The notes below the pieces were generated by a model. It was not told the DNA's origin. It was given only the letters and a program-made list of their open reading frames with translations, and did not search any database. A DNA stretch of 64,000 nucleotides from Candidatus Avimonas faecium (GTDB lineage Bacteria > Bacillota > Clostridia > Oscillospirales > Acutalibacteraceae), in contig CAJFQI010000002.1 of assembly GCA_904419005.1 (NCBI GenBank), positions 1 to 64,000 on the forward strand, written 5' to 3'. Below are positions 33,594 through 34,877 of this stretch, one piece after another. Position 1 is the first letter of the stretch. Every line of letters starts with the position of its first letter. The position numbers and the translations under genes were made by a program.

Positions 33594-33623
33594 AAGGGCG
33601 GGAGGGTTAACCCTCCCGCCCTT
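33594..33623. terminator. 13-bp palindrome between convergent genes, containing the aroF stop codon
   Basis: AAGGGCGGGAGGG and CCCTCCCGCCCTT form a perfect 13-bp stem around a TTAA loop. The loop includes the TAA stop codon of the minus-strand DAHP synthase gene. No real T-run follows on either side, so it may act as a stabilising 3' hairpin more than as a classic terminator. Confidence 0.65.
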
Positions 33624-34617
33624 CAAGCGTGAGCTGCGCTTTGACCTTGCCCATGACCCCGTCGAACTGGGCGGGGGTGAGGGACTGTGCCCCGTCGCAG
33701 AGAGCGGCCTTGGGGTTATTATGCACCTCAATCATCAAGCCGTCCGCTCCGGCCGCGACCGCCGCCTTGGACAGGGGCTCCACCAGCCAGGGGATGCCCG
33801 CCGCGTGGCTGGGATCAACGATCACCGGCAGGTGGGAATGGTGCTTGAGCAGCGGTACGGCGGAGATATCCAGTGTGTTGCGGGTGGCGGTCTCAAATGT
33901 GCGGATGCCTCGCTCGCACAGGATAACCTGCTCGTTGCCCCCGGCCAGGATGTATTCCGCGCTCATCAGGAATTCCTCCATCGTGTTGGCCAGGCCCCGC
34001 TTGAGAAGCACCGGCTTGCCGCAGTGCCCCAGCGCTTTGAGCATTTCAAAATTCTGCATGTTGCGCGCCCCCACCTGGATCACGTCCACGTCCCGGAACA
34101 GGCCGAGATGGGAGAGATCCATGATCTCGGAGACGATGGGAAGGCCGGTTTCCTGCTTGGCCAGCAGCAGCAACTCCAGCCCTTCGGCGTGGAGACCCTG
34201 GAAGGCGTAGGGGGAGGTGCGGGGCTTGAACGCGCCGCCCCGCAGCAGCTTGGCGCCGCTCGCCTTGACCGCTTTGGCCACAGCGACGATCTGCTCCTCG
34301 GTTTCCACCGAGCAGGGGCCGGCGATCACGCTGAAATGCGGGCCGCCGAATTGCGCGTCCCCTACGGCGACGACGGTGTCGTCCGGATGGAATTTCCGGT
34401 TGGCCGCCTTGTACGGTTCGGATACCCGTTTGACATCCTCCACGATGTCGTTGGCCCGCACCGATTCCAGGTTTACGCGGGAGGTGTCGCCCACCAGCCC
34501 TACAATGGTGGTGTGCTCGCCGTCGCTGCGGTGGCAGGTCAGGCCCTGGGCCTCCAGGCCGTGCAGCAGGCCCTCCACCTTCTGCTCGTCCGCGTTTTGC
34601 TTTAGGATGATAATCAT
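33607..34617 (-). CDS. aroF: 3-deoxy-7-phosphoheptulonate synthase (DAHP synthase, type I-beta)
   Basis: DAHP synthase joins phosphoenolpyruvate and erythrose 4-phosphate, the first step toward Phe, Tyr and Trp. The 336 residues comprise an N-terminal ferredoxin-like domain (MIIILKQNADEQKVEGLL..., about residues 1-70) and the barrel. Barrel motifs are FSVIAGPCSVETEEQI, KLLRGGAFKPRTSPYAFQG, GARNMQNFEML, CERGIRTFE and LPVIVDPSHAAG. In the Thermotoga enzyme this N-terminal domain confers tyrosine feedback inhibition. AGGAGGA is 6 bases before the ATG. The gene is preceded by a leader peptide and terminator that point to attenuation by tyrosine, so both synthesis and activity may answer to the same amino acid. 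Confidence 0.95.
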   Translation of the reverse strand: MIIILKQNADEQKVEGLLHGLEAQGLTCHRSDGEHTTIVGLVGDTSRVNLESVRANDIVEDVKRVSEPYKAANRKFHPDDTVVAVGDAQFGGPHFSVIAGPCSVETEEQIVAVAKAVKASGAKLLRGGAFKPRTSPYAFQGLHAEGLELLLLAKQETGLPIVSEIMDLSHLGLFRDVDVIQVGARNMQNFEMLKALGHCGKPVLLKRGLANTMEEFLMSAEYILAGGNEQVILCERGIRTFETATRNTLDISAVPLLKHHSHLPVIVDPSHAAGIPWLVEPLSKAAVAAGADGLMIEVHNNPKAALCDGAQSLTPAQFDGVMGKVKAQLTLEGREG

Positions 34618-34640
34618 ACCGGTTCCTCCTGTTTGTTTAG

Positions 34641-34684
34641 AAAATAAAAACGCCGGCAGGCTCTGTCGTGCAGAACCCGCCGGC
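34641..34684 (-). terminator. Attenuator terminator in the aroF leader
   Basis: On the minus strand GCCGGCGGGUUCUG pairs with CAGAGCCUGCCGGC through 14 bp including two G-U pairs, with loop CACGA, followed by UUUUUAUUUU. It lies between the leader peptide stop and the aroF ribosome binding site, so unless prevented it would stop transcription before aroF. Confidence 0.88.
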
Positions 34685-34712
34685 TTTGAAAGCGTGTTTC
34701 AAAGGCGCCGCC
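34676..34712 (-). promoter_or_regulatory. Antiterminator-like hairpin overlapping the leader stop codon
   Basis: CUUUGAAA (34697-34704) pairs with UUUCAAAG (34684-34691) around CACGC. Partial pairing extends outward, so GGCGGCGC can engage GCCGGCGG, the 5' arm of the terminator. Forming this structure would compete with the terminator. The leader UGA lies in its left arm, so a terminating ribosome would mask it. The extension contains mismatches, and the structure was drawn by eye. Confidence 0.5.
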
Positions 34713-34815
34713 ATGGGACGGCCCGGGGACAGCACAAACAGCCCGAACGAATGCCGTTCAGGATCGCATAGCGGTAATATCGGGTGGTTTGGGCCGCTGC
34801 CGGGATATGTGCCAT
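34699..34815 (-). CDS. Tyr-rich leader peptide of aroF (attenuation peptide)
   Basis: A 38-codon ORF reading MAHIPAAAQTTRYYRYAILN..., with Tyr codons TAT TAC, then CGC, then TAT at positions 13, 14 and 16, and ending VPWRRL. AAGGAGG lies 8 bases before the ATG, one of the best ribosome binding sites in the window. The ORF is too short for the track and appears there only as the tail of the 34699-35076 frame. Three tyrosines within four codons, upstream of an intrinsic terminator and aroF, fit a leader that senses charged tRNA-Tyr through ribosome stalling. A nascent-chain arrest mechanism is an alternative. No mature function is expected of the peptide. Confidence 0.75.
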   Translation of the reverse strand: MAHIPAAAQTTRYYRYAILNGIRSGCLCCPRAVPWRRL

Positions 34816-34848
34816 CGCCGTTTCCTCCTTTTGTGTTTGCTGCTTTAA

Positions 34849-34877
34849 AGTGTAACAGCATTTCCCGGCCTTGTCAA
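34849..34877 (-). promoter_or_regulatory. Sigma-A promoter of the aroF leader
   Basis: TTGACA, exactly 17 bases, TACACT on the minus strand. Transcription should begin near 34842, about 27 bases before the leader peptide ATG and 225 bases before aroF. Confidence 0.88.

Follow-up and report, generated by a model that had tools for sequence, protein, structure and literature searches.

A probable tyrosine-codon transcription attenuator ahead of a DAHP synthase gene in Candidatus Avimonas faecium, and aromatic leader peptides before aroF in other Clostridia

Sensing of tRNA in clostridia usually falls to T-boxes, and in E. coli the DAHP synthases AroF, AroG and AroH are controlled by TyrR and TrpR. 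Leader-peptide control of DAHP synthase genes has been described or proposed in other bacteria. The aroF leader aroR of Corynebacterium glutamicum carries Phe-Tyr-Phe codons and, in the available passages of PMC11802643 (citing Neshat 2014), responds to phenylalanine and not to tyrosine. The upstream ORF family uORFC-13-1, found ahead of aroF, is given in the accessible part of PMC8632094 with 24 representatives, from Acholeplasma and environmental sequences only, and attenuation is proposed for it. For Shewanella aroF, the gene of a Tyr-sensitive DAHP synthase, an “Attenuator sensing tyr-tRNA” is predicted (passages of PMC2659441). Among Firmicutes, histidine leaders precede hisZ/hisS* (PMC2965389) and his operons (PMC9413887), and a leucine-rich attenuator peptide belongs to branched-chain amino acid synthesis in Staphylococcus aureus (PMC5794164, in part). 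The original prediction for the locus described here, a tyrosine attenuator before a clostridial aroF, supposed such an element to be undescribed. This stands as far as the tyrosine-codon leader goes, for which no precedent was found in the literature searched, with sparse coverage of subscription journals, and it needs qualifying in that aroF attenuators as such are known (aroR, uORFC-13-1). Within the same coverage no description of Lachnospiraceae leader peptides for aromatic synthesis was found.

The window, that is the whole stretch of DNA analyzed, comprises 64,000 nucleotides of Candidatus Avimonas faecium (genome G000), and all features given below lie on its minus strand. The gene aroF (33607–34617; hereafter aroF1) encodes a type I-beta DAHP synthase of 336 amino acids with an N-terminal ferredoxin-like domain, matching PF00793 (2e-75) and PF18152 (1.1e-21) and scoring above the cut-off for NF006421 and TIGR01361. 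Transcription would start from a sigma-70-type promoter (34849–34877) made up of TTGACA (34877–34872), a spacer of 17 nt and TACACT (34854–34849), with TG ahead of the second hexamer (10/12 matches vs 0.3 expected per region shuffle); the same promoter, with TTACACTTTAAAG, precedes the aroF1 orthologues in the genus. Next comes a leader peptide ORF of 38 codons, MAHIPAAAQTTRYYRYAILNGIRSGCLCCPRAVPWRRL (34699–34815, TGA stop at 34701–34699), its ATG at 34815 preceded at 8 nt by the Shine–Dalgarno sequence AAGGAGG (34824–34830); leaders L004 and L005 of two related species are homologous to it, and that of a third, L003, is degenerate. The putative regulatory tyrosine codons 13, 14 and 16 (UAU UAC CGC UAU, 34768–34779) are followed closely by a predicted hairpin, CCUGAAC...GUUCGGG (34742–34762), whose stem arms are invariant in the four species, and this by the 5′ strand of the predicted antiterminator, CUGUUUGUGC..UCCCCGG (34723–34741). 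A further hairpin, CUUUGAAAcacgcUUUCAAAG (34684–34704), lies across the leader stop codon, with its stem kept and its loop and one pair varying between the four species. The intrinsic terminator (34652–34684) is a stem-loop of 14 pairs, two of them G-U, followed by a G and UUUUUAUUUU to 34641; its stem and loop are almost invariant in these species. Finally, the aroF Shine–Dalgarno sequence AGGAGG (34625–34630) stands before the ATG at 34617. Promoter, Shine–Dalgarno sequence, 38-codon ORF, tyrosine codons, 14-bp terminator and aroF ribosome binding site had all been named in the original prediction, and each was recovered to the base.

The marks of an attenuator, namely a Shine–Dalgarno-preceded short ORF, a cluster of end-product codons and a terminator between ORF and aroF, are present, and the parts stand in order and beyond chance expectation. 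Among 5000 shuffles that kept the dinucleotides of the region, 0.04% yielded a Shine–Dalgarno-preceded ORF with at least three tyrosines in four residues (2.2% for at least three aromatic residues), and of the 351 small Shine–Dalgarno-preceded ORFs in the whole window only two have such a cluster, the leader ORF being one. Identity as a T-box leader was rejected on the lack of a covariance-model match: neither a T-box nor any other Rfam RNA scored above the gathering threshold around aroF1 or in 20 related loci, and the 11 T-box (RF00230) matches in the genome all lie away from either aroF.

From these parts we infer stalling, read-through and tyrosine as the signal, as follows. RNA polymerase would make the leader with a ribosome translating the 38-codon ORF behind it. 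When Tyr-tRNA is scarce, this ribosome would stall at codons 13–14 (and 16), covering the hairpin at 34742–34762 in part and leaving 34741–34723 free to pair with the terminator 5′ arm and loop (34683–34663) as these emerge; with the antiterminator formed, polymerase would read into aroF. When Tyr-tRNA is ample, the ribosome would be passing across the antiterminator strand as the terminator emerges, upon which the 14-bp hairpin would form and transcription would end.

With transcription taken as far as 34663 and the ribosome set on codon 13 or 14, fold predictions give an antiterminator of 9 + 3 + 4 pairs (CUGUUUGUGC/GCACGACAG, UCC/GGG and CCGG/CCGG), in which 34741–34723 pairs with the terminator 5′ arm, loop and start of the 3′ arm, consuming most of the 5′ arm and enclosing two hairpins, one of them that at the stop codon. 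The same antiterminated fold is predicted for the L004 and L005 leaders. Its probability with the upstream RNA occupied is 0.91–0.95 in the three species (0.94–0.95 in G000); with the upstream RNA free it drops to 0.64 (G000) and 0.00 (L005) for codon 13 and to 0.00 for codon 16. A ribosome in transit through codons 26–29 masks the antiterminator strand, and placing it there gives a probability of 0.00 in G000 as in L004 and L005. The complete leader is predicted always to favor the terminator thermodynamically, so the choice must be kinetic and fall during transcription. The leader stop lies 30 nt beyond the antiterminator strand in G000 and L004 and 15 nt beyond it in L005; at the distance of 30 nt a ribosome parked at the stop would not cover the strand. 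In the original prediction the hairpin at the stop codon had been cast as the antiterminator, overlapping the next stem. That hairpin does span the TGA, but it shares just one base, 34684, with the terminator and was rejected in this role, which passes to the 34741–34723/34683–34663 pairing, within which the hairpin can itself form.

Taken alone, the G000 antiterminator duplex is no stronger than same-composition shuffles (p 0.57), a single-leader comparison that high G+C renders uninformative, and support for this duplex is drawn from comparison across loci. An alignment-free swap test was used, wherein every leader segment is paired with every terminator and row and column means are removed. 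Own pairs proved better by a mean of −6.0 kcal/mol (n = 43, Z −12.6), the G000 aroF1 pair ranking 1 of 43, as compared to −1.33 ± 0.33 for dinucleotide-shuffled segments and −0.5 and −0.8 for neighboring segments (immediately upstream, and directly behind the terminator). An independent replicate with 40 loci gave −4.9 (Z −10; control −1.29 ± 0.40). Leader–terminator pairing is specific across loci. The segment after the aromatic codons, which in many leaders contains a UUUUGCUGU-like stretch, has the terminator 5′ arm and loop as its partner, as seen in L030 (UUACUUUUGC with GCAAAAGUAA), L072 (UUCUGCUGU with ACAGCAGA), L049 (UUUUGCUGUGAAA with UUUCAUGGCGAAA) and L019 (AUCGUGC-C-AUGAG with CUCAU-GCACGAU). 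The stretch mostly encodes x-Cys-Cys and is read in a different frame in L030 (CUU UUG CUG UGA), which points to a role as RNA.

For the wider sample 80 aroF loci were taken from named genomes, and 64 more came from the same family. Because loci were picked by similarity to the G000 aroF, the following figures describe this sample and not all Clostridia: of the clostridial aroF genes covered, between about one half and four fifths are preceded by an aromatic-rich leader ORF with terminator; a Shine–Dalgarno-preceded ORF with at least six aromatic residues in ten occurs in 40% of 105 related aroF upstream regions (controls: 0.9% of shuffles, 0.25% of windows drawn at random from these loci); and in the 64 family loci leaders number 52, of which 51 come with a terminator. 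Examples are Marasmitruncus massiliensis (...ASYFYYCGSEYRYPGLFCC...) and Bittarella massiliensis (...RFFRFSSLGFFFSSSFFG...), and aromatic leaders were likewise found in Angelakisella massiliensis, an Acetobacterium, Lachnospiraceae, a Treponema bin and a Lentisphaerae bin. Most clostridial aroF leaders mix Phe and Tyr codons, those of M. massiliensis and A. massiliensis among them, the tyrosine-only leader being an unusual form. Neither Rfam (subset tested) nor the literature searched contained this broad set. The aroF genes from the Treponema and Lentisphaerae bins (L039, L098, L101 and L106) branch among clostridial ones, and two of them, L039 and L101, come with an aromatic leader and a terminator; this suggests co-transfer of gene and attenuator, or mis-binned contigs.

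Conservation in close relatives had been put forward as a test of the original prediction, and its outcome is divided: the layout recurs before aroF in the wider clostridial set, and the aroF1 leader is absent from most of the genus. The genus set holds 12 genomes, nearly all with at least two DAHP synthase matches. An aroF1 leader with tyrosine codons is present in three of the 12 species, is kept without these codons in one (L003, from G001) and is absent in eight, where the aroF1 orthologues have promoter and leader without an aromatic ORF. The eight leaderless orthologues and the loss of the tyrosine codons in L003 count against the attenuator reading. The leader of G011 (L005) reads MAKRSAATHTTRYYRYAILNGSRSGCSCCPRIA, with tyrosine codons identical to those of G000, and that of G002 (L004) reads ...TTRYFRYAFLN... 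with codons UAU UUC CGC UAC. In L003 the terminator and antiterminator strands are kept, Cys-Ser-Arg-Arg takes the place of the tyrosine codons and the Shine–Dalgarno-proximal ATG opens a different frame; to judge from its sequence, this attenuator may have lost its amino acid or changed to another. The four leader-bearing aroF1 genes form one group in the protein tree. The nearest other leader in the aroF1 clade, L123 from a different genus, is again tyrosine-dominated (MASKRRNSFCYYYGSYFTKYGPA / ...SFCYYYGSYFTKYGPA), as are L044 and L037; leader Phe codons number zero in G000 and L005.

A sequence of the TTACACTTTAAA type overlaps the −10 hexamer in every aroF1 promoter of the genus. In most leaderless relatives it forms a near-perfect, operator-like palindrome, TTACACTTTAAAGYGTAA, that is almost absent elsewhere in these genomes. 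At the G000 promoter a remnant is left (34838–34855), of which the left half is intact and the right half degraded. The right half is degraded in G011 too (no match within two mismatches in either genome), and both these genomes have intact tyrosine leaders; in G001, where the tyrosine codons are lost, the palindrome is intact (G001:C30:9018-9035). The pattern, seen in few species, suggests that one control, palindrome or tyrosine leader, may have replaced the other. Copies of the palindrome also lie upstream of certain aroF2 promoters, and a single one precedes what looks like a transporter gene (G007:C11, L119).

An attenuator of its own, made up of a Phe-rich leader, MATLSRKTQQNRFTGVFSFGHYFGWGYFCCADRAVRQPA, and a terminator, precedes the second DAHP synthase gene of the genome, aroF2 (G000:C5:52764-53747). 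This leader (L002) lies ~295 bases upstream of aroF2 and is conserved in the genus. The aroF2 leaders are Phe-rich or mixed Phe/Tyr in 11 of the 12 species, and a covariance model built on them (n = 11) gives a single strong site in each of 11 of the 12 genomes; G003, whose aroF2 match is truncated, has no strong site. Homology of the aroF1 and aroF2 leaders was considered and rejected, the model coming up empty on aroF1 leaders of the G000 type. With a Tyr leader at aroF1 and a Phe-rich one at aroF2, one isoenzyme of G000 is Tyr-coded and the other mainly Phe-coded. G005 has an additional DAHP synthase gene (L026) with a T-box-like GGTGGCACCGCG and a terminator just upstream (bases 1–94), in a locus that ends at the contig edge and gave no Rfam match; three control types may thus act on one gene family within one genus.

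The core of the original prediction, a leader peptide whose tyrosine codons attenuate a DAHP synthase gene, emerges as the best-supported reading and is strengthened by the wider comparison. The element is very probably an attenuator of a working type, sensing of tyrosine by the leader is likely as read from its codons, and we hold with good, though not full, confidence that a ribosome-mediated transcription attenuator couples aroF transcription to tyrosine supply. A real attenuator could instead report general aromatic or translation stress, with three tyrosine codons and nearby Arg and Cys codons slowing the ribosome when amino acids are short more broadly. Most members of the set do mix Phe and Tyr, L004 has Y-F-R-Y, and C. 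glutamicum aroR with its Phe-Tyr-Phe answers to Phe rather than Tyr (PMC11802643, in part); the G000 and L005 leaders, however, contain no Phe codon and L123, L044 and L037 are tyrosine-dominated, and we consider a general signal unlikely, if worth keeping in mind. The leader might also be a decaying relic, with a repressor at the −10 palindrome as the main control and leader and terminator setting a constant basal level. Most leaderless relatives, and L003 as well, do have a perfect or near-perfect palindrome at the aroF1 promoter, but in G000 and G011 it is the palindrome that is degraded and the tyrosine codons, terminator and antiterminator that are kept, the opposite of a decaying attenuator, which makes this reading improbable.

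The C-C motif (UGC UGU) that in many leaders follows the aromatic run at ~8–10 codons could be thought to mark a nascent-chain arrest peptide or another non-tRNA sensor, the peptide stalling the ribosome with free tyrosine or another ligand. Yet the motif coincides with the antiterminator RNA strand, differs in frame in L030 and changes along with the terminator, the peptides otherwise varying freely; a conserved arrest peptide is for this reason not favored, and sensing of this kind is very improbable. Absence of any regulation, with a terminator that serves upstream transcription and an accidental ORF, has in its favor that short tyrosine ORFs can arise by chance, at the frequency given above for a cluster of this strength. 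Set against the promoter directly before the ORF and the recurrence of the layout at aroF across Clostridia, it deserves next to no credence.

Returning to the tyrosine attenuator, three points stand out: tyrosine as the amino acid, a Phe-coded sister in the same genome and the large clostridial set. We would tentatively go further, to a view that we hold at somewhat under even odds, and propose that Clostridia possess a large group of as yet uncatalogued aroF attenuators, with leader codons alone matching each DAHP synthase isoenzyme to its end product, that G000 has one isoenzyme read by Tyr-tRNA and another mainly by Phe-tRNA, as an RNA-level counterpart of the TyrR/TrpR-controlled E. coli enzymes, and that in the clade of G000 the tyrosine attenuator is taking over from a repressor site in its promoter. 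Through DAHP synthase, carbon is committed to the making of every aromatic amino acid. A widespread aroF leader set would, if true, make trp-type attenuation mainstream in Clostridia, gut lineages included, and would help annotate many short ORFs; the tyrosine-only leader would be a rare instance of tyrosine as an attenuation signal, and the pair of Tyr- and Phe-coded isoenzymes would allow a direct test of RNA-level balancing of pathway branches.

With E. coli trpL, pheL and his the G000 leader shares a translated leader with codons for the pathway product, an intrinsic terminator and an alternative antiterminator; it differs in its Tyr codons (not Trp, Phe or His), in the DAHP synthase gene, in the clostridial host and in an antiterminator strand placed 30 nt before the leader stop. 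The His and Leu leaders of Firmicutes likewise represent regular leader-peptide attenuation in low-GC Gram-positives, but concern histidine or leucine, other genes and narrow groups. Tyr-tRNA sensing at a DAHP synthase gene is also suggested for Shewanella aroF, there as a computational motif in Gammaproteobacteria and in passages that present no leader peptide (PMC2659441). Resembling the G000 leader in its short upstream ORF, promoter, ribosome binding site and terminator before aroF, uORFC-13-1 is set apart by its Phe codon(s) and, on a comparison by description only (PMC8632094, in part), may be related to the clostridial set. In aroR, as in G000, a leader peptide stands before a DAHP synthase gene, and stalling at aromatic codons, predicted for G000, attenuates transcription, whereas its Phe-Tyr-Phe codons, its response to Phe and its place in Actinobacteria, as given in the available part of PMC11802643, distinguish it from the tyrosine leader of G000.
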